Part shown: one piece after another, positions 4,177 through 53,200 of the stretch
Layout of the letters: each line of letters starts with the position of its first letter
How positions within the stretch are numbered: position 1 is the stretch's first letter
NCBI GenBank assembly: GCA_903904875.1
Contig: CAIVEC010000013.1
Location: 1-55,954, forward strand
Direction of reading: 5' to 3'
DNA from: an uncultured bacterium
GTDB taxonomy: Bacteria > Patescibacteriota > Gracilibacteria > Absconditabacterales > Absconditicoccaceae
DNA length: 55,954 nt
The notes under the pieces: model-generated
The model's input: only the letters and a program-made list of their open reading frames with translations
What the model was told of the DNA's origin: nothing
Database searches by the model: none
Program-made: the position numbers and the translations under genes

Positions 4177-4227
4177 TGTAGGATGACTCAAATAGGCTCC
4201 ATAAGATTATAATACGATATAAAACAA

Positions 4228-4716
4228 GTTACAGGGAACAGGTTGAAGGGAGCAGGAAAATAACCTCTGACTAATTACATTATTTTATTTTTTTGATAAA
4301 CGCATAAATCATTTTGCTTATTGATATACATTGTGAATATGATTCACTATACTGCTGTTGTGACACGTATCATAATTTTAATCCAAAATACAGCATATTT
4401 CTTACTTCTCAACATGATCATTTTGTAATTCGTAAAAATCTTTGTTTTTCTTTTATGGTTTGTCTTTCATATCACTCGGAGATGTTATTAGCTATTGAAA
4501 TACTAGCTCTCTGTAATTGATCTTTGAATCCAAAATCTTTTATTTCTTTACAAATCTTATAAGCATCCAAGATTAGCTTTTCTGTCATTTTCCATATTTC
4601 TAAATCTTCAAATTGCATATAGCATATATTAAATATTTAAATGATATCAGGAGCAGGTTCTAGGGAGCAAGGAGCAGAAAAAAATCTGTAACCTGTAACT
4701 TGTAACCTGTGAACAA
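4228..4716. mobile_element. R3-bracketed four-helix-bundle cassette
   Basis: R3 units flank the S23-like gene on both sides in mirrored order. GTTACAGG...GGGAGCAGG stands at 4228-4262. GGAGCAGG...GGGAGCAAGGAGCAG followed by CTGTAACCTGTAACTTG stands at 4648-4716, so the outer ends are inverted. Empty R3 units occur at 18671-18731 and in frame within rimO at 45441-45501. Interpretation as a mobile cassette is inference. Confidence 0.55.
4280..4618 (-). CDS. S23-type four-helix bundle protein
   Basis: A 112-residue protein of the 23S rRNA intervening-sequence/S23 four-helix-bundle family. Seen motifs are an N-terminal FEDLEIWKM, QLQRASISIANNISEG (Gly from TGA), FLRITKGSCGEVRNML and LKLGYVS, in the order and spacing of the family. 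Family members are pentameric helical bundles of unclear role, often encoded in rRNA intervening sequences and related to Avd proteins of diversity-generating retroelements. It is bracketed by inverted R3 repeats, with no operon partners. The first ATG is the start and it ends in TAA. A second, diverged copy lies at 7324-7677. Confidence 0.85.
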
Positions 4717-5391: not shown

Positions 5392-7203
5392 TTACTTGTT
5401 TTTTTGAAGATTGAGCTTGTCTATGACTGCTATATCTATATCCGAAGGGTTGAGTTTGAGGTAAAAGTCATAAATGCTTCATTTGCAGATGAGCGGTAAT
5501 TTTTTACCCGTCTCTTTTTCGATGAGTTCTATCAATGGCAGCACAATCTTGCCCAGCATATCATTCTTATTCTTGGAATAACTGGAGAGAGGAAAATTTT
5601 TGTTTGAAATATCCTTGCCGACATTTTCTATAAGAATCTTCAGGATATCCACGGTTCCTGTCTGAGAATGCAGGTCTTCCGAGGTAAGTTTACGTCCGTT
5701 GATATACATCTTATTGTTGAGCATATCCAGAAGGATTCATGTCTTATAATTTTTTATCGTGGTATCACAGTTACCTATCTGCACTTTACCGTCAGCCATC
5801 CTGAGGATACAGCTGCTGGAATCAAGGAATTCCGAATATTTTCCTTGTGCTAGATCCTGTTCGAATTTAAGTCATTCATGTTCTATTCCATCAATCCGGT
5901 TAGCATAAATCAGCTTGGAACCAATAAAATCCAGATTTATCTTATCCGCTGCATCCACGATCATCTTTCTGAATCCTTCAAGCGGCATAGCGAACGACAA
6001 CGATCATCACATGATGGTGCTGTCATTCGGTGAAAGCGAGATAGACGTTTGCGGACCATGAAAATTTTCCAAGAATGTTTTGATGAATTTCAAGAAATTC
6101 GTTGAACTGTTTCTGGTGACACAATCTGCTTGCCTGAGTTTCGTCAATGAATCAAGGAACTGGAGCATATGAGTTTCTTCATAAGCTTCCGAATAGATCT
6201 TGGACATATAATACAGGATTTTGAGGCTTATCGCACCCATGAGTTTCCCATACGTCAGATCGAATTCATCGGTTTCCGGAGCAATCAGGTATTTATAGAA
6301 TCTTGGAACCCTATTGGGATGAAGATTACTGAAATAATCACCCATCAGTTTCTTCATATCAGATTTTATCGTTTTGCTTATATTTTGATTAGTTTTGTAA
6401 TTATTTCCTGCTATCTGTTCCAAGAGCACCGGTTTACCGGAATAGATAATCCCATAATCGATAGGCAGATACGGGTTTTCCCTTAATCCTTTGAAGAGAT
6501 GATTCAACCTGAACGCATAGCATCTTTTGACGATCTCCTCTTCCGGCAGCAGCGATTTATCACCATCTTCGGAAAACGATACGATAGGATAATATCCATC
6601 AAAGAATGTCGCTAACTTAGTCGCCGTAGAAATCATCCCATAGACGGATTTATCGAAATGCAAGGCATCAATGAAAATCTTATAGAGCATATTATACGAA
6701 TCATCAAGCACTTCGTTGATATTTTTGGTTTTGAGTGCTTCTATAGCGTGAATATCAATATTTCAACATATTCTCTGAACGATAACTGCGAGCAGCAACG
6801 CTAAGATAGAACCGAATCATAATCCCACCCCTCTCGGCAATTCGGAAAGGATATTGATCTGGATGCCTTCATCCCCTGAAAGCAATTTCGCGTATTTTTT
6901 TTCCAGTTCCTTGTTGATATCGGTAAAATACGGTGCATATTCGACGGCATTGCTTTCGATGAACTGATATTCGCTGATATCCAGATGATAGATTTTATTC
7001 ACGGAAATTCATTTAGTCGCACTTCTTGTATATCCCATATACATACGCAATGGTATCTTTTGTTTGATCCCTACCCCGCTGTAATTATTGAGAACATCAC
7101 CTGATCGATTGAGGATGAACGGAGCTGAGACGACCATCTGGTTTTCGAGAAAAAATTTCTCGTAGGTCTGGACATACGTCTTTTTTAAGTTTTTAGAGTT
7201 CAT
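5392..7203 (-). CDS. GHMP-kinase-like protein
   Basis: A 603-residue soluble protein. The N-terminal third resembles GHMP small-molecule kinases. An opening strand VSAPFILNRSGDVLNNYSG occurs where the family has its substrate loop. SELPRGVGLGFGSILALLLA corresponds to the ATP-binding PxGxGLGSSAA motif, and a strand IDYGIIYSG follows. The match is loose: the second Ser of GSSA is absent, and the protein is much longer than the usual 300-400 residues, with an unrecognised C-terminal half. It is possibly a sugar or mevalonate-type kinase, or a non-catalytic relative. The start ATG at 7203 precedes MNSKNLKKTYVQ. Stop TAA. No operon partner is obvious. Confidence 0.6.
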
Positions 7204-7254: not shown

Positions 7255-7760
7255 GTGTTTCGTTTCTTGCTTTCACGACGTCTCAGATTGCTTCAGGTCG
7301 TTTCAGGTAGCGTCAGATTGTTATTAATCTTTGAGCACTTTTATAAAATTACTTATTTTTGTTCATAGACTCAAACATTTATCTTTTAATTCTTCAAATT
7401 GCTTTGTTGTAATATATCAAAAAATATGTGCAGAATATAGCATACTTCTTACTTCTCATGTGGATCATTTTGAATAATAGAGAAATTTTATAAAATCTTT
7501 ATTTGATCATCTTTCGTTACCTTCAGCAATATTGTTTGCTATAGATATACACGCTCTCATAATTTGGTCCTGAAAACTCCAATTTCTAAAATCTTTATTA
7601 TAAAAAATTATTCACAAGTCGTTTATTAGTTCTTGTGCAAGTTCTCGAATTTTTAGTTCCTCAAATCTTTTTCCCATTTTCGCTTATAGAGCTAAATATA
7701 CAACAATCTGTATCTATCTGTAACGTGAGCGGAGCGAACTTGAGTCAATCTGTAGCAAAA
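7255..7760. mobile_element. R2-bracketed four-helix-bundle cassette
   Basis: R2 units at 7255-7320 (ending CAGATTGTT) and 7690-7760 (starting AACAATCTG) flank the S23-like gene in inverted orientation. Empty R2 elements of similar sequence occur elsewhere in the window. The right arm abuts the 3' end of ruvA. Mobility is inferred, not shown. Confidence 0.55.
7324..7677 (-). CDS. S23-type four-helix bundle protein
   Basis: A 117-residue member of the same family as the gene at 4280-4618. Conserved blocks are FEELKIRELAQELI, QIMRACISIANNIAEGNER, KFLYYSKGSTGEVRSML and FGYITTKQFEEL. Two glycines in the third block are TGA codons. The two copies share the fold signature but differ widely in sequence and in flanking repeats (R2 here, R3 there), so this is not a recent duplication. 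It starts at the first ATG and stops in TAA. No neighbour suggests a function. Confidence 0.85.
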
Positions 7761-7765
7761 AGTTT

Positions 7766-8317
7766 TTACATTTGTGAAATTATCCGTTTTATGACTTCTG
7801 GAATATTGTCTTTGGTGACCGTGCCTTCGTATCTCTGGAGCGTGCTTTTGATCTGATCTGCTCCATAGCCGAATCACTTGAGCGAAGCGACGATATTCTT
7901 GTAAAGTTTCTGATCTATATCCATCCTGTGGATGTCTTCTGCATCAAATGTCCCTCTGAGCTGAAGCACGATTTTCTTAGCGGATTTTGGGCCGATTCAC
8001 GGAATAGCTTGGAAAAATTTCACATCAACATTTTTGAGCGCTTGCTGGAGATTCTCTTTTGGCAACTGAGATATCTGAAATGCGGTTTTGGGTCATACGC
8101 CATTGATCTTGAGTAATGATTCAAACAATACTTTCTGGTCGATAGTATCGAAACAATAATAGAAAATCGTTTTTTTGTTATCATCGAGATAAGGATAGAG
8201 AAAAAATTCTCCCTGATGCTCTTTTCCGAGATAATGGACTTGGATACCAAACATATCATTGCTTAACAACGTTTCGCCTCCAAGATGACGTATTTTTCCT
8301 ACAAAATAATGAAACAT
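7766..8317 (-). CDS. ruvA: Holliday junction branch migration protein RuvA
   Basis: A 183-residue RuvA, which binds four-way junctions and loads the RuvB motor. Domain I (OB fold) spans about residues 1-65. Tandem helix-hairpin-helix motifs follow, KINGVGPKTAFQIS and AIPGIGPKSAKKIVLQL, with glycines partly encoded by TGA. The C-terminal RuvB-binding three-helix domain (LYKNIVASLKGFGY...VIKRIISQM) is present. Length is close to the usual 190-200. RuvB and RuvC are not adjacent. The start ATG at 8317 fits the family N-terminus (MFHYFVGKIRHL). Confidence 0.93.
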
Positions 8318-8775
8318 ACTTTATCACTACCATAATAAAAAGCTTCAGATTGCAACAGATCGTCTCATATTGCCTCAGGTTGCTGTAATATTACAACAAT
8401 CTGGAACAATCTGTGACGTCCGCTTAAGCGGACTTGAATCTATCTGTAGCGAATTGATGTTTATATAGTCATTTCCTATGTTTTTTCAATGAGTTTTTGG
8501 GTTGATATTGAATGATAAATTATTATTCTCTTCCTGTCATTGGACTATCAGTGATTATTTTTTATTTGTTATTGCTGAATAGTACAAATACCAAAAAAGA
8601 ACCATAGCTTTGGTAAACTATAGTCCTTTTCTGTCGCTTTTATTAAAGCGTACGGCTTCACTACACAAGTATATTATACATATTTTGTAATAAATGTCAA
8701 ATATCTTACAAAATACTATCATTTTACATTAAATACCGCTTATAAACTAGCTTTTACCCTATTTTTTGGCCTTCT
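8318..8775. other. Intergenic region with R2 element, upstream of rpoD
   Basis: Holds an R2 element at 8341-8456 with the palindrome GTCCGCTTAAGCGGAC, then AT-rich DNA with a small CGCTTT/AAAGCG hairpin near 8635-8650 that could be part of the rpoD leader. No RNA gene or ORF is recognised. Confidence 0.6.
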
Positions 8776-11989: not shown

Positions 11990-12117
11990 AACTAATGAAA
12001 AATTAAGAATTAATAATGAATAATGTATGAATTGTACAATTATAGACTATTGTAATCTACAATAGTTCATACTATAGCAAAATCCGACATTATTCATTTT
12101 TCATTATTCGTTAAAAA
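11990..12117. repeat. R4 MITE-like inverted repeat
   Basis: About 130 bases with AATGAAAAATT...AATGAATAATG at one end and CATTATTCATTTTTCATTATTC at the other. The conserved core is ACTATTGTAAT...ACAATAGTTCAT. Copies with the same ends and core lie at 22752-22886 and 47503-47630, and a related one at 52488-52620. Confidence 0.75.
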
Positions 12118-13612: not shown

Positions 13613-13641
13613 TGACTTCTATTATAATATAATTATATGTA
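13613..13641 (+). promoter_or_regulatory. Promoter of the four-paralog array
   Basis: TTGACT (13613-13618) and TATGTA (13636-13641) with a 17-base spacer, divergent from the TPR gene promoter. Between it and the ATG lies the leader AATTTTTACCTTATAAGC that recurs before the next two paralogs. Confidence 0.5.
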
Positions 13642-13677
13642 TGCTATTGTAATTTTTACCTTATAAGCATTATCACC

Positions 13678-14112
13678 ATGGGAGGAAGTAAGGACTGATC
13701 AGAAAATTTACAGAATAACCAAACAAATACTATTTCAAAGACCGAAAGCGTGGAAGAATTATCAGCTATGGCGATCAAAAATAACTTTTTGATGTTACAA
13801 AAAGAATTTCTTCAAAAAAATTGGGACTCTATCTGTAAATACTCTCCTGTAATCAAATCGTTATTGGAAATACCCGAATTACAGGACATCAAATTAGATA
13901 ATATAAGCATGATTAGTGACAAAAAACATATGATTGAAAATTATTTATTTATAGAAACCTCTATAGATTATGATGGAAATCTCTATCAATTTTTATTAGG
14001 CAAAGGGTTCTCCACTGAAATCATACAACCGACTATTAGATCAAATCTTGATGCGGGAATATTATTTTGCTATAAGGATTTCCAGTTATTTCTCAAACAA
14101 GAAAATATATAA
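13678..14112 (+). CDS. Array paralog A (MGGSKD family)
   Basis: A 144-residue protein of an unrecognised family that occurs four times in tandem here. The N-terminus MGGSKDGSENL is almost invariant among the copies. It is followed by a low-complexity Asn/Thr/Lys linker, then a domain with LLMLQKE-like helices, an LLEIPELQDIKLDNI motif and a C-terminal FLKQENI. Copies B, C and D carry Cys in place of Ser at position 4. There is no signal peptide. The start is fixed by the shared leader CACCATGGGAGGA. One TGA glycine is present near the N-terminus. Confidence 0.8.
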
Positions 14113-14143
14113 TTATAATTTTTACCTTATAAACATTATCACC

Positions 14144-14590
14144 ATGGGAGGATGTAAGGATCTTTTATGATGAAATCAATTAAGAAATGAAAAGAATACT
14201 ACTGATTCACAGACACATAAATCAGCTGATGAAATCATAGCTAATCTTTTGATGTTACAAAAAGAACTTGATCAAGAAACTTGGAAGAGTATTTGCGAAA
14301 ATACTGATGCTAAATTATTATTGGAAATACCGGAATTTCAAAAAAATCTTACTATAGATAGAATAGAACACATAAAAAGTGTTTTCCATTGAGAAATTGG
14401 TCATTTACATGTATACGCTTCTGCGTTTAAGAAAGGAAAAGACGATCTTTTTGATCTAGTATTAAGTAAATTTCCTGCAGAGACAATACAACCCATATTT
14501 TCCAAACATGGTGGTTTCAATCCTCCATATGACGGAGTAGAAATTTCTTTCAAAAATGAAAAAATCTTTGTTCGTATCAAACAAAAATAA
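14144..14590 (+). CDS. Array paralog B (MGGCKD family)
   Basis: A 148-residue paralog starting MGGCKDLLGG, with a Thr/Ser linker, LLMLQKELDQETWKSICE, LLLEIPEFQKN and a C-terminal FVRIKQK. It is the most diverged in the central part (HGEIGHLHVYASAFKK). It lies 31 bases after copy A and is preceded by the same TTTTTACCTTATAAACATTATCACC leader type. Three glycines are TGA. The conserved Cys4 is not preceded by a hydrophobic signal, so a lipoprotein is unlikely. Function unknown. Confidence 0.78.
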
Positions 14591-14627
14591 CTATCATCAT
14601 AATTTTTACCTTATAAATATTATTACC

Positions 14628-15098
14628 ATGGGAGGATGTAAAGACTGATCAGAAAATCTAAAAGATGAAACATCAGAAAATCAAGAAACAGGTATAAATA
14701 AGATACAAAGAAAATCTACAAAAGAAGTCAGAGAGAATTTCCAATCTTTAAATAAGGAACTCTTGCAGAAAAATCTAGAACTTCTTGTAAAGGTGGATCC
14801 TAACATCAAAAAAATCTCAGAGATACCCGAATTACAGGATCTCAGATTGGAAAGGATTGATGTGTATGGGAACCATAGATTACGGATAGACTGATCAACA
14901 AGTTTTGATGGAAATCTCCGCCAGCTCTTATTGAAGCATGGATTCAATAAAAATCAATTAGTATCAGATACATGAGCGACAGCAAAAGCTGAAGAAAAAT
15001 TAACAGGAAATAAACAGATACCAAAAATTTGAGTAAGAATATGCTTATATTGATCATCTCTCCAAATTTCCATAAAACAAGAAACCCTATCCAAGTAA
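14628..15098 (+). CDS. Array paralog C (MGGCKD family)
   Basis: A 156-residue paralog starting MGGCKDGSENLKDETSE. Shared blocks are a KSTKEVRENFQSLNKELLQKNL helix, ISEIPELQDLRLERIDV, a strand RIDGSTSFDGNLRQLLLKHGF and a C-terminal ISIKQE. It is closest to copy D, with which it shares the ST(K)E...DGNLRQLL blocks almost residue for residue. Glycines are encoded by several TGAs. It is followed by a copied piece of the elp3 3' end and a terminator. Confidence 0.78.
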
Positions 15099-15130
15099 TT
15101 TTTTGATCATATAGCTTCACTCGAGCTTGT
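15097..15130. repeat. Copied 3' end of elp3 behind paralog C
   Basis: The run CATATAGCTTCACTCGAGCTT directly after paralog C is identical to the last codons of the real elp3 at 15659-15691, read in the same orientation relative to the paralog. It marks the array unit as paralog plus convergent elp3 tail. Confidence 0.8.
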
Positions 15131-15156
15131 AAAAACACCTGAAGACCGGTGTTTTT
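15131..15156 (+). terminator. Rho-independent terminator after paralog C
   Basis: AAAAACACC / GGTGTTTTT stem with a GAAGA-type loop followed by T-rich sequence. Confidence 0.8.
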
Positions 15157-15223
15157 CTTTTATTGACTTTTTATTTCAAATATATAAATATGAGATTAAA
15201 TTTACTTATTAACATCTATCACC

Positions 15224-15658
15224 ATGGGAGGATGTAAGGACTGACTAGAAAATCTAAAGAACGATACAACCAAAAAACATGAAACAGGCACCGATAAGAT
15301 AAAGAAAAAATCTACAAAAGAAATTCATGAGAATCTCGAATTATTGAAAAAATGATTATTAGAGCATAATCTAAAATATCTCGTACAAAAAGACCCTAAT
15401 ATAAGAAAAATTATTGAGCTGCCTGAATTGCAGGATTTTAAAATGAAAGACATCGATACAGATTTCGACTTCATAACCATACACTGATCAACGGACTTTA
15501 ATTGAAATCTTCGCCAACTCCTAATAAAAAACTGATTTAACAAAAACAATGTGTCCATCCTACGTGATAGTCGTTGAGCGCTTGAAAAATGAATACATAT
15601 AACTTTTTATTGATCGTGTCTTAGAGTAAATATCAAACAAGAAAAATTATCATCATAA
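15224..15658 (+). CDS. Array paralog D (MGGCKD family)
   Basis: A 144-residue paralog starting MGGCKDGLENLKNDTTK, very similar in layout to copy C (KSTKEIHENLELLKKG, IIELPELQDFKMKDID, ITIHGSTDFNGNLRQLLIKNGF, VNIKQEKLSS). Nine or so glycines are TGA. It lies 125 bases after copy C, with its own leader. Its 3' end overlaps the convergent elp3 stop by 12 bases, an arrangement that explains why copy C is trailed by an elp3 fragment. Confidence 0.78.
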
Positions 15659-17500
15659 TTTCTTGACCATATAGCTTCACTCGAGCTTATACCCTAGCTT
15701 TCTGTAATACGCTCTGACTCAGATGCCGGAGATAACGGAAAGCTTTTTGTATTTGTGTCATTGAGAAATCTGCTCAGCTATTTCCATAAGCTGTTTACCG
15801 AATCACTTGTGCTGAACCTTATCACTATTTTTTTTCTTCTTTTCTAATCACTCCATTTGTCCGTAGACATGTAATTCTCTAATTATCGCTGTTTGTTTTC
15901 CTAATCACGGAATCTGTATCGTATCTTTTTCATTAGGCAATAAGAGTCTTGTGAACCCGTATAAATATCCTAACTGATCTTCACAACTAATAAAATATTC
16001 CACTCCTCCACTACTCATATATTTTCTTATTATCAAATTCGTTCATTCATTTTTCATTTTTCATTTTTCATTTTTCATTCTGTTCCTGATTTCGCGGCTT
16101 CTCGTATCCAAAGAAACAAAATTTCTGAACGATTTCACGTCCGGTTGTTTTCCGACAATGATTGTCTGGATTTCATCATTTTTTCTAACGATTTTTCCCA
16201 GTTCTTCTTTGAGCGCTTTTTGCAGAGACGTGTATAACGAATATTTTCAGTATAATCTTTGGTAAAACTTTTTTCGTTCCGTTGGTTTACTTTTTTGTTC
16301 CTGCAGCAACTGATTGTGCATGAGTTGTGAAAGATTTGTTATCGTGCTTCATGCAACGATCTCATTTGCAGGAATATCGCGGATCAAACGCTTGATTCTT
16401 GTATATGGAGGAATGACGGTCAAAAAAGTTACTCTGATAAGTTTTTTGATATCGCTGGTTTCTAGCGGTGTATATTTTCCTTGGTTGTAGAGTCTGCAAA
16501 GTTGAGTATTGGGAATGACGGACGTAGGATAGAATTTGATTTCATCCGGTTTGAAAAATGGGTCTGTATATAAATTTTTAAATGTTAATACATCTTTAGC
16601 GTAATCAGAGCCGTAAAGTCCTGGCATTACATGCAAACAAAATTTGAAGCCGTATTGCCTAAGCTTATGACAGGCTTCACGCGCTTGCTGGACGGTATGC
16701 CCTCTTTTATTCAGCTTTAAAACATTCTCGTCCAATGACTGCACTCACATCTCGATCCTCGTCACTCCGAGTTCGCGTCGGAATTGGCAGTTCTCATCAG
16801 TCACGTATTCCGGTCTTGTTTCTATCGTCAGTCAGATGATTCTATGCGCTGCGCTTTCATTTGTTTTCAATGCTTCAGTAATATTGTTTGAATATTTTAT
16901 TTTTTTATTCTTATCTACTATCGCGTGAGAATATTTTTTGGTCGTAGAAATTTTGATGTTCTTGAAATATTCGTCGAAGGTATTGCAGGCATCGTAGAGC
17001 TCCTTGATGAATTTCGTCTTATACGCTTTCGTGTAGACGTCGAAGGTTCATCAGAGAACGATCATCTCTATCTTGTCGGTTTCATGACCGGTTAATGTGA
17101 GTGAAAGCAATCTATTGTAGACTTGTTTGATCGGATCGAATTTATTGAGCAATGCTCTCATGGCGCCCGGCTCGGATTTGATATAGCTCTTTGGCATGGT
17201 CGGATCGTTGGGACAGAAAATGCATTGGCCGGGACACGGAAATGGTTTGGTCAGCACTTGAATTGCTACAATTCATGAACCAGATCTGATTGCTTTTTTT
17301 TTGAGCAACTGCTCTATCTGTGGATCTTTGGTGATTTTCTTGGTTTTCAACAGTTCGTAATAGGCTTGAAGCAATTGGATATTCGATGGTATATCGGCTA
17401 ATTTATTTGTTTTAGCAAAATCCCTCTTGAGACTGGTAAGAAGGTCAAGATTACGGTCCTGGGGTTTGGTTTTGACTAATTGTACGATGATTTTTTTCAT
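15647..17500 (-). CDS. elp3: Elp3-like tRNA uridine C5 carboxymethyl synthase
   Basis: A 617-residue radical SAM plus acetyltransferase protein of the Elp3 family. It modifies the wobble U34 of tRNA using acetyl-CoA and SAM. The iron-sulfur motif is PCPGQCIFCPNDP. It is followed by MPKSY and EPGAMRALLNKFDP, then IETRPEYV and RIEMGVQSLDENVL. The C-terminal GNAT domain has GYLYGFTRLLLP, HKGFGKQLM and the end block YYRKLGYKLEGSYMVKKL. It contains a short in-frame insertion (MKNEKGKMKNE) at about residues 473-488 made of R4-type repeat DNA. Start ATG at 17500. Bacterial members are uncommon outside some lineages. Confidence 0.93.
16036..16080. repeat. R4-end type insertion within elp3
   Basis: Tandem CATTTTTCATTTTTCATT units identical to the terminal sequence of R4 elements interrupt elp3 in frame just before the conserved acetyltransferase strand. 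Confidence 0.65.
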
Positions 17501-20746: not shown

Positions 20747-20890
20747 CCGTTTCATATCGCTCCAGGTTGCTCCAGATCGTTTCAGATTGTTGCAATATAG
20801 TGCAATATGTGGCGTTCGCCTAGGCGAACATGAGTCAATATGTGGCGCGAAGCCGCCATAGGCGGAAGAGTGTGTAGCAATATAGTATAT
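20747..20890. repeat. R2 element
   Basis: CAGATTG-type words, the palindrome GTTCGCCTAGGCGAAC and repeated ATATTG/CAATAT words fill the gap between ctpA and the sigma factor gene. Confidence 0.7.
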
Positions 20891-22053: not shown

Positions 22054-22084
22054 ATAAAAAAACCCGCCTAGGCGGGTTTTTTTT
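22054..22084 (+). terminator. Strong terminator of hup
   Basis: AAACCCGCCTAGGCGGGTTT perfect palindrome followed by eight T. The same CCGCCTAGGCGG core recurs in the rplI terminator and R2 elements. Confidence 0.92.
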
Positions 22085-22142
22085 AATTGAGACCCAATGA
22101 AAGGCTGAAATGAAATGAAGTTTTTCATGAGGTCGAAATTAT
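22085..22142. repeat. R6 repeat downstream of hup terminator
   Basis: AATTGAGACCCAAT ... TTTTTCATGAGGTCGAAATTAT begins right at the terminator T-run. The same order of words occurs on the minus strand behind another terminator at 30366-30428. Confidence 0.65.
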
Positions 22143-22342
22143 AGTTGCTATCCAAATAAGTCCGAAATGTAATGAGGAATTGTTGTGATAGCAACTATGC
22201 ATCCTTCAATCAAAATCCAAAACCTTTTGAAGGAGGATGTATATATTTTCTTTTAAGAAAATATATATTTGATTTTTCGTAGTAAACTACTATATATACT
22301 ATTAATTCTGAATTATGAATTTTAAATTCTAAATTTTAAAAA

Positions 22343-22751: not shown

Positions 22752-22886
22752 CAATGAAAAACTAATAATGAAAAACTAAAAACGTAGGAATTGTGCTATT
22801 ACAAACTACTGTAATATACGATAATCCATAATAAAACAAGTCATTCATTTTTCACTATTCACTTTTCATTATTCATTAGTATTTCA
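22752..22886. repeat. R4 MITE-like inverted repeat
   Basis: AATGAAAAACTAATAATGAAAAAC at the left and CATTTTTCACTATTCACTTTTC at the right, with the core ACTGTAATATACG between. It ends immediately before the methyltransferase ATG. Confidence 0.7.
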
Positions 22887-30365: not shown

Positions 30366-30428
30366 ATCAACCATAATTTCGACCTCATAAAAAACCTTAA
30401 TACTTAGGCTTTTTATTGGGTCTCAATT
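30366..30428. repeat. R6 repeat (minus-strand orientation)
   Basis: ATAATTTCGACCTCAT...AGGCTTTTTATTGGGTCTCAATT is the reverse complement of the element after the hup terminator at 22085-22142. Both start right at a terminator T-run. Confidence 0.65.
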
Positions 30429-30457
30429 AAAAAAAGAGGCGAGTAATAACTCGCCTC
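30429..30457 (-). terminator. Terminator of the 216-aa lipoprotein gene
   Basis: On the minus strand GAGGCGAG / CTCGCCTC with a TTATTA-type loop and a T-run. It starts 23 bases after the stop codon. Confidence 0.9.
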
Positions 30458-32621: not shown

Positions 32622-32822
32622 ATGCTTATAAATGATTTATTAGATCTAGAAGATCTTATTACTATGAACGCTGACGATGATGCTGGCGATGATGATGCTG
32701 GTGATGACGCTGGTGATACTGACGATGATGCTGGCGATGATGATGCCGGTGATGACGCTGGTGATACTGACGATGATGCTGGTGATGATGACGCTGGTGA
32801 TGACGCTGGTGACGCTGTATAA
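32622..32822 (+). CDS. Acidic repeat peptide, candidate modification substrate
   Basis: A 66-residue ORF with a short non-repetitive N-terminus (MLINDLLDLEDLITMNAD), then four or so imperfect copies of DDAGDDDAGDDAGDT built on a 48-base DNA repeat, ending DAGDAV. It has no Lys, Arg or aromatic residues in the repeat. It sits between the DUF1704 peptidase and the ATP-grasp ligase and is followed at once by its own terminator. Leader plus Asp/Thr-rich repetitive core is reminiscent of graspetide precursors, but a calcium-binding or purely repetitive peptide is equally possible. No homolog is recognised. Glycines are GGT/GGC. Confidence 0.5.
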   Translation: MLINDLLDLEDLITMNADDDAGDDDAGDDAGDTDDDAGDDDAGDDAGDTDDDAGDDDAGDDAGDAV

Positions 32823-32843
32823 TAGACAAACCTATTACTATAT

Positions 32844-47502: not shown

Positions 47503-47630
47503 ATGAAAAATTAAAAAATTAATAATGAATAATGTTGGTATTGTATACTTATTAGCTATTGTAAAATTACAATAGTCCATTAGTTTAAACAAATCCTACA
47601 TTTTTCATTTTTCACTATTCATTATTCATT
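47503..47630. repeat. R4 MITE-like inverted repeat
   Basis: TTAATGAAAAATTAAAAAAT at the left end, core GCTATTGTAAAATTACAATAGTCCAT, and CATTTTTCATTTTTCACTATT at the right, ending at the next ATG. Confidence 0.75.
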
Positions 47631-48791
47631 ATGTTGAGTTTATATATCCACATCCCCTTCTGTGCAAGCAAATGCGCCTATTGCTCCTTCAATAGCATGC
47701 CGATAGATTTTTCCGATACGCTGATTGATGAATATATCGAAGCATTAAAAAAAGAGATCGATCATTATGCTGATACCATAGAAGATAAACAATTGAAAAC
47801 CTTATATATCTGATGATGAACTCCGAGCAGGATCTGATCATCAAGGATCATCGACATCATCGAACATATCAGGACCAATTTCGATTTCGAAGAACTGGCG
47901 GAAATGAGCATCGAATTGAATCCGTATCCTGAAGAAGAGGTTTTGAACTTCGTACAGGATCTGAATAAAAAATATAATAAGATCTCCAGACTGAGATACA
48001 GTTTCGGTATCCAGAGTTTCGACGACGAAGTCTTGAAGATAACAGGAAGAGCGTATAATTTTTCCAGCATTGTTGAGTTTCTAAGAGCATTGAGCAAGTA
48101 CAAGCAGGAAAATAATGTATTTAATTTCGATTTCATCGCCTTCGGAAAATTCCAGGTCAGCAAGAATGGATTCAAACAGCTCCGGCATGAATTCAAACGC
48201 GACTTCTTCCAGAACTTCCTCGCTAGCTGATTCGCTGACAGTATCTCTTTATATACCCTAGAAAACATCAAAGACAAGCTATGTCCGAAAATCTATTTCG
48301 GGACTGACGAAGAGATCATGGAAGAATTTCTGATCCTGAAAGAGATGGTCGAGAATGAATGATTCGCAAGATATGAAATATCGAATTTTGCTCATGCCGG
48401 CAAAGCATCAATCCACAATATGGTCTACCGGAATATGGAACCGTATATCTGATTATGACTCTCAGCCTCATCGTTCTTCGGTAACAAAAGATGGACGAAT
48501 ACGTGAGATATCAAGCAGTATATTCAAGGAGAACGGATCGATAAAAAAGCAGTCCAAGTATTGAATGAATCAGATCTATTGATTGAAGAATTTTTTCTCA
48601 GACTGAGAACCAGAGAAGGAATCGCCGACATCAACAAATTTATTTCTGTCCTTGTTCCGAACCACGAATCATTGTTAAAAAATTACAAAAATGAATGACT
48701 AATCCTTTTTGACTGAACTAAATTACAGCTTACCGATGAAGGGATGAACGTATATAATTCCATAATCACGGATTTATTGATAAAAATATAA
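47631..48791 (+). CDS. HemW-like radical SAM protein
   Basis: A 386-residue coproporphyrinogen-III-oxidase-family radical SAM protein. The cluster motif is SLYIHIPFCASKCAYCSF (CxxxCxYC). GGGTPSRIG follows, then SIELNPYPEEE and the RYSFGIQSFDDEVLKITGRA block, close to the HemW/HemN family (Q-S-F-x-x-x-x-L-x-x-x-x-R). YEISNFAHAGKASIHNMVYR is the typical E-N-F-x-x-H/N region. HemW relatives are haem chaperones; a haem pathway is not visible in this window. Start ATG abuts an R4 element. It ends in TAA and converges on a minus-strand terminator. Confidence 0.9.
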
Positions 48792-52487: not shown

Positions 52488-52620
52488 AATTTTGAATTTT
52501 AAATTTTAAATTTTGAATGTAGGATTTGTAAAGTTATGGACTATCATTATACTGCTAAGTAACTATAGGTCATAATAGAACTTATACCATCATTCAACAT
52601 TTAGCATTCAACATTTAGAA
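52488..52620. repeat. R4/R5-related repeat
   Basis: AATTTTGAATTTTAAATTTT on the left, core ACTATCATTATACTGC and GTCATAATAGAACTTATACC, and ATTCAACATTTAGCATTCAACATT on the right. It has the arrangement of R4 with R5-like ends and fills the divergent mutL gap. Confidence 0.55.
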
Positions 52621-53042: not shown

Positions 53043-53082
53043 TAGTTGAATTAGAAGCTTAGATGCTTAGAATAATACCGTT

Positions 53083-53200
53083 GCAGATTGCCACATGTCC
53101 CGATAAATCGGGACGCCTCATATTGTTACAGATTGTAGTAATATTACGACAACCTGTAGCTATCTGAAGCAACCTGAAACAATCTGAGACGAATATCTAC
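53083..53200. repeat. R2 element
   Basis: CAGATTGCCACATG...TATTGTTACAGATTGTAGTAATATTACGACAACCTG and CAATCTGAGACG, with the small palindrome CCCGATAAATCGGG. It fills most of the gap 53043-53242, with no gene. Confidence 0.75.

Follow-up and report, generated by a model that had tools for sequence, protein, structure and literature searches.

An S23 gene bracketed by the inverted arms of a dispersed intergenic repeat, and a possible partnership between repeat and protein

In the genome of an uncultured Absconditicoccaceae bacterium (G000), a small S23 gene lies between two inverted arms of a repeat, R2, that is built of 10-nt units. This raises the question of whether the repeat and the protein belong together. 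The window analysed here is the whole stretch of 55,954 nt, contig CAIVEC010000013.1. The gene, S23-B (7324-7677, minus strand), lies in the loop of the R2 element and encodes 117 amino acids under code 25, in which TGA is read as glycine. A profile search assigned the product to the S23 (23S_rRNA_IVP) four-helix family PF05635 with E=2.8e-25 and 89 bits, against a curated cut-off of 33.8. The AlphaFold model of the monomer consists of four helices with a mean pLDDT of 95.6; in fold it is closest to 2gsc (the best match, TM 0.89) and 2rld, both of the S23 family, and next to Avd, a DGR protein. We know of no nuclease motif or recognised catalytic site in S23. The element is not inside a 23S rRNA gene but between ruvA, its upstream neighbour (7766-8317, minus strand), and a GHMP-kinase-like gene downstream (5392-7203, minus strand), and these two genes served as markers of the orthologous site. 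Pairs of S23 genes gave dN/dS values of about 0.08-0.15, most pairs having dN of about 0.05-0.1 and dS of about 0.5-1.3; for S23-B and its relative in the genome G003, dN is 0.30 and dS 2.07. Judged by these ratios, S23 genes are under purifying selection, and therefore the S23 protein has a function.

The initial annotation had placed R2, and not a second repeat called R3, on either side of S23-B. Both R2 sequences were found where it put them, CAGATTGTT at 7314-7322 and AACAATCTG at 7702-7710, and AACAATCTG has six exact copies in the window versus 0.84 expected, a number that no shuffle reached. Both arms extend beyond what had been recognised. The downstream arm (7279-7322) consists of four 10-nt units (CAGATTG, CAGGTCG, CAGGTAG, CAGATTG), and the upstream arm (7700-7756) of three units and a side hairpin, GTGAGCGGAGCGAAC, at 7725-7739. 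Inverted ends bracket the ORF. Direct alignment of the upstream with the downstream arm scores only 24, within the range of mismatched pairs, because R2 units are degenerate; unit-based counts were used for S23-B in place of this alignment. A second S23 gene, S23-A (4280-4618, minus strand), is flanked by R3, a 7-nt repeat of the GTTACAGGGAACAGG type that is unlike R2, at about 4220-4258 and 4650-4713. The two genes fall on different branches of the S23 tree and carry different arm types, which bears out the earlier view that unlike S23 genes have unlike repeats here. All six S23 genes of G000 have their own flanking arrays. One S23 copy of this genome (L055, 8496-8798 of G000:C26) has an in-frame TAA and is likely a pseudogene.

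R2 is not confined to S23-B. It is a dispersed palindrome of about 110-125 nt, usually with a side hairpin, found at 14 gene-free places in addition to S23-B. Its units span 10 nt, of which C at position 1, A at 3, T at 6 and G at 7 are fixed; the unit scan itself selected on these letters, and the same columns are nearly or fully invariant in the alignment. In a gene-free copy, two inverted arrays enclose a short centre that often reads TAATATTA; most copies also have the side hairpin. Joined together, the flanks of S23-B align end to end with the 14 gene-free copies, the ORF taking the place of the centre or loop. The gene-free copies therefore share their ends with the coding element and have its interior removed, as is typical of MITEs. 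No clear target-site duplication was seen by eye at R2, and there is no transposase within the S23-B/R2 element. A model trained on the 14 gene-free copies and run on the whole genome recovers these places and the flanks of S23-B, the match over the upstream flank covering 7657-7758 (minus strand, 33.6 bits). Gene-free copies in the window include one between ruvA and an rpoD-like gene (8340-8453, minus strand; 115 bits, in the training set of the model), one that starts 2 nt after a stop codon (20747-20850, minus strand), and two others (2647-2761 and 53078-53192, both plus strand).

Outside G000, R2 is rare. Among relatives of the genus, the model finds about seven places in G003, a single place each in G004 and G007, and nothing in five others; under stricter filters it finds none in the remaining genomes of a 192-genome class sample. 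G000 contains the two-unit pattern CWAYCTGNNNCWAYCTG 31 times and its reversed form not once; each of 58 relatives has between 0 and 2 occurrences. R2 is nearly private to its own genome. The palindromes at G003:C93 and G007:C43 are real and R2-like. Pattern hits at G003:C41 and in G032 look like chance matches inside coding sequence, and there is no array at the hit in G031; these three were rejected as R2. The palindromes of G003 (L183-L188 and others, about seven) have the unit CNAYCTGAGGC and, in some, a CCTGCCTACCGCAGGCAGG side hairpin. Despite these copies, no R2-armed S23 was found in G003 (91% complete).

The orthologous site was compared in same-genus relatives. G002, G004, G006 and G007 lack both S23 and R2 between ruvA and the GHMP-kinase-like gene. 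G001 and G008 also lack both and have an unrelated ORF there; G003 and G005 have another neighbour at this site. Orthologous sites without R2, for which the initial annotation asked, were thus seen in six relatives. The simplest reading of this comparison would be that the S23-B/R2 element was gained in this lineage. The exact insertion junction cannot be named because RuvA in the six compared genomes is only 83-87% identical to that of G000. With the nearest genome at about 87% in RuvA, no insertion event between close strains was caught.

These observations are consistent with S23-B and its two R2 arms being one element, gene-free R2 copies being versions that lack the ORF, and the S23 protein acting on its cognate arrays, a reading to which we give about an even chance. 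An RNA-based explanation starts from known S23 ORFs, which lie in intervening sequences of 23S rRNA whose paired ends are cut by RNase III; in Coxiella burnetii, heptameric GACAGAT repeats directly precede the S23 start (PMC4990558). By this account the R2 arms form a duplex in RNA that RNase III cleaves, and S23 binds the RNA so released. It also draws on the resemblance of the S23 fold to Avd, a part of the DGR ribonucleoprotein (8ub7), and on the G-rich sense strand of upstream S23 arms (45 versus 8). Pairing in R2 argues against it: in the 14 copies, 79.4% of cells of the drawn hairpin pair versus 81.5% after shuffling, with 499 of 500 shuffles reaching the observed value or more, and two-sided changes are also rarer than in shuffled data. 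A base-paired RNA stem under selection was thus rejected for R2 for want of covariation. Every R2 unit strictly keeps the motif C.A..TG, and there is no covariation between opposing units, which suggests that it is the unit motif that is conserved and not pairing, and that units are recognised singly, like binding sites. The S23 elements of this analysis are also intergenic and not in rRNA, and no reverse transcriptase matches in the own genome (87% complete). We consider the RNA-based explanation very unlikely. The Coxiella intervening sequence resembles S23-B in that an S23 ORF lies in the loop between inverted ends, but it is within 23S rRNA, excised by RNase III and has a decaying ORF, whereas the elements here lie between genes, their ORFs are conserved, and they have long matched arrays together with many gene-free relatives. 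Coxiella reportedly does not, in all probability, make its S23 protein (PMC4990558), which we count against the one-element reading, as we do the finding that G003 has R2-like copies and no R2-armed S23.

At 25 of the 160 adjacent gene pairs that are orthologous between G000 and G008, both genomes have tandem arrays (odds ratio 4.5, p=6e-5). The excess persists when gaps of at least 35-60 nt are taken (odds ratio 4.5-5.5, p of about 2e-4 to 4e-4; for gaps of at least 60 nt alone, 5.5 and 2e-4). By inspection, the array families at these shared sites often differ: opposite three R2 sites G008 has repeat-like sequence or arrays of another kind, and other relatives have different arrays in the gap upstream of ruvA. 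The centres of shared sites of the AATGAATAATG type are species-specific. Since sites persist while their sequence is replaced, overwriting or targeted re-insertion would fit better than random hopping. Shared sites with differing families are not predicted by plain random transposition, and this counts against the one-element reading.

The main rival explanation is that arrays are functional intergenic elements, such as terminators or RNA-processing or regulatory sites, that S23 regulates in trans; recombination would homogenise them and S23 would move none. Arrays in orthologous gaps beyond chance, often of different families, agree with this, and so do the purifying selection on S23 and the position of R2, nearly all copies of which are intergenic (one overlaps an ORF whose annotation is uncertain), 8 of 15 being no more than about 11 nt away from a stop codon. 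Regulation alone leaves unexplained why S23 ORFs are inside arrays, and why R2 occupies 15 places here and is nearly absent in relatives. We regard it as rather unlikely.

Other repeats were noted in the window. Gene-free arrays of the AATGAATAATG type with the palindromic centre GGACTATTGTA are at 11998-12113, 22757-22878, 47507-47631 and 52492-52600, the last being partly different; at one orthologous site in G008 this family has a different, shorter centre. Four tandem paralogous small genes with the common start context ATCACCATGGGAGGATGTAAGGA occupy 13627-15691 (repeat families D2, D3 and D6). An imperfect tandem repeat of the CTGGTGATGATGA type with 9-15-nt steps, at 32659-32823, is probably coding. 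A two-copy inverted unit (22056-22147 and 30368-30435), the 28-nt arms of which are 93% complementary, adjoins CCGCCTAGGCGG hairpins.

Whether arms and proteins belong together was assessed with S23 genes in general. We sampled 92 S23 loci from the class of G000, Bacteroidota and Verrucomicrobia. Inverted matches between upstream and downstream arms (score at least 27) were found at 65 loci, and inverted or direct matches at 71, versus 9.75% of random positions; at the inverted threshold, short non-S23 ORFs gave 18 of 288 (6%). None of eight weak PF05635 members, mostly adjacent to reverse transcriptase genes and Avd-like, had inverted arms. Weak members beside reverse transcriptase genes (L118 of G008:C7, L200, L201, L202, L203 and L205) are probably DGR Avd. 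The commonest arm period is 7 nt, and the 10 nt of R2 is unusual. Inverted matching arrays are also found at S23 genes on plasmids of cyanobacteria (Nostoc, Geminocystis, Calothrix and Picosynechococcus) and of Bacteroidota (Riemerella); those of the Pseudanabaena plasmid are direct, and those of the Calothrix PCC 7716 and Aulosira plasmids did not score. On two cyanobacterial plasmids (L196, L197), S23 and its arrays are inside CRISPR-Cas operons (cas6/cas4 and cmr2/cmr3).

Arm families follow the S23 tree. With 35 proteins and 10 arm families, 12 arm changes are needed versus 25.1 after shuffling (minimum 21), on a tree of 105 columns with many unsure forks; without syntenic copies, seven families need 9 changes versus 15.2, and none of 500 shuffles was as low. 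The mapping of repeat families on the S23 phylogeny, which the initial annotation proposed, thus came out in its favour. Among non-syntenic pairs of at least 65% identity, over half have arms in common, and below 45% identity about 1% or less do; a correlation of identity with arm similarity over all pairs was discarded (rho 0.02), the signal lying only above about 55-65% identity. Arms of resident S23 genes recur at other sites a median of 20 times in G000 and 40 times in G008, versus 1 for foreign arms (p = 0.0001-0.0005, computed as if all loci were independent, although they are not fully so). For A/T-rich families, arm counts have lower specificity. With R2 arms, 380 kb of G000 gave 13 matches beyond the locus itself and 400 kb of G008 gave no match.

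For S23-B itself the picture is mixed. Its nearest relatives, at 59-64% identity, carry other arms, and its well-supported clade of five members has three arm types; therefore, arms do switch. The idea of co-evolving pairs of repeat and protein accordingly holds in that arms track the S23 tree, but S23-B and these relatives speak against a strict pairing. It had also been said that R2 near unrelated genes would speak against such pairs. R2 is indeed found at 14 S23-free sites, but these copies are the same element minus the ORF, and this changes what their presence means. Because arms follow the tree and gene-free arrays match the resident S23, a partnership of repeat and protein is supported across S23 generally; S23-B gives weaker support because of the other arms of its nearest relatives.

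These data also bear on the possibility that slippage or template switching at hairpins makes the arrays and selfish S23 ORFs insert into them with no interaction between protein and repeat. Bacteria have an excess of heptameric repeats, for which slippage has been put forward as the origin (PMC4692102). The degenerate arms and species-specific centres resemble ongoing rewriting, and the difference of arms among close relatives of S23-B also fits such insertion. Yet arms stay with S23 lineages in the absence of synteny, gene-free arrays match resident and not foreign S23 arms, and complementarity of opposing R2 units is not kept. We think that mere insertion of this kind is unlikely.

Returning to the reading in which S23-B and R2 form one element, we propose that the general S23 design is a short ORF between inverted arrays of 7-11-nt units peculiar to an S23 lineage, with many gene-free copies. 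The S23 protein, for which a homopentameric ring is reported in Xanthomonas (PMC4990558), would bind the units of its own array and might act in trans at intergenic sites so that cognate arrays are copied or overwritten. Such movement would rely on host replication or recombination enzymes, which we invoke because S23 has no recognised nuclease and the assembly lacks both a RAYT-type transposase and a reverse transcriptase. Neither Y1_Tnp (PF01797) nor reverse transcriptase (PF00078) has a match in the own genome (87% complete), and spread of R2 by a RAYT or a reverse transcriptase was rejected on this basis. By analogy, the scheme would parallel RAYT and REP, the HUH transposase being replaced by a protein that binds or anneals. 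More broadly and more tentatively, S23 proteins may be trans-acting partners of short intergenic heptamer-type arrays in many phyla. Each would recognise its own unit and rewrite or spread arrays of this type at fixed sites between genes, the resident S23 genes thereby setting array identity in a genome and allowing propagation free of a transposase.

Of known systems, REP/RAYT (TnpAREP, REPtron, REPIN) is the closest working analogy. As there, one small gene is flanked by palindromic repeats, and dispersed intergenic gene-free copies match the resident gene; for S23-B these are the 14 gene-free copies, with enrichment of cognate arms. Unlike RAYT, a HUH (Y1) transposase, the protein between the R2 arms is a four-helix S23 with no known nuclease, and array units are degenerate and 7-11 nt long, R2 units by inspection not being like REP hairpins. 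Avd (PDB 4dwl, 8ub7) has the same fold (TM 0.70-0.82 by query), but its genes adjoin a reverse transcriptase, for which the genome of S23-B has no PF00078 match. Heptameric intergenic repeats of Xanthomonas and Nostoc (GGGAATC, GGGGATT) and cyanobacterial STRRs are known (PMC4692102). They resemble the arrays here as 7-nt intergenic tandem repeats with fixed positions, a sequence that varies between species and a frequent place near one gene end; the arrays here differ in being linked to S23 genes, and PMC4692102 makes no mention of S23. In the partial library consulted, we found no literature linking S23 genes to flanking or cognate dispersed arrays beyond the Coxiella heptamers.

Structures of S23 proteins have been available since 2006, and to our knowledge no function has been assigned to them. 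Heptameric intergenic repeats have likewise been noted for decades, and we know of no agent for them. If each S23 protein partners one repeat type, both the function of S23 and the agent of the heptamers could be tested by one binding experiment in which repeats are swapped. The partnership, if true, would explain why different array families are found at the same intergenic site in related species, and it would add a REP/RAYT-like system whose protein is no recognisable nuclease. That related S23 genes across several phyla each have their own matched pair of short repeats points to an apparently undescribed partnership between repeat and protein.
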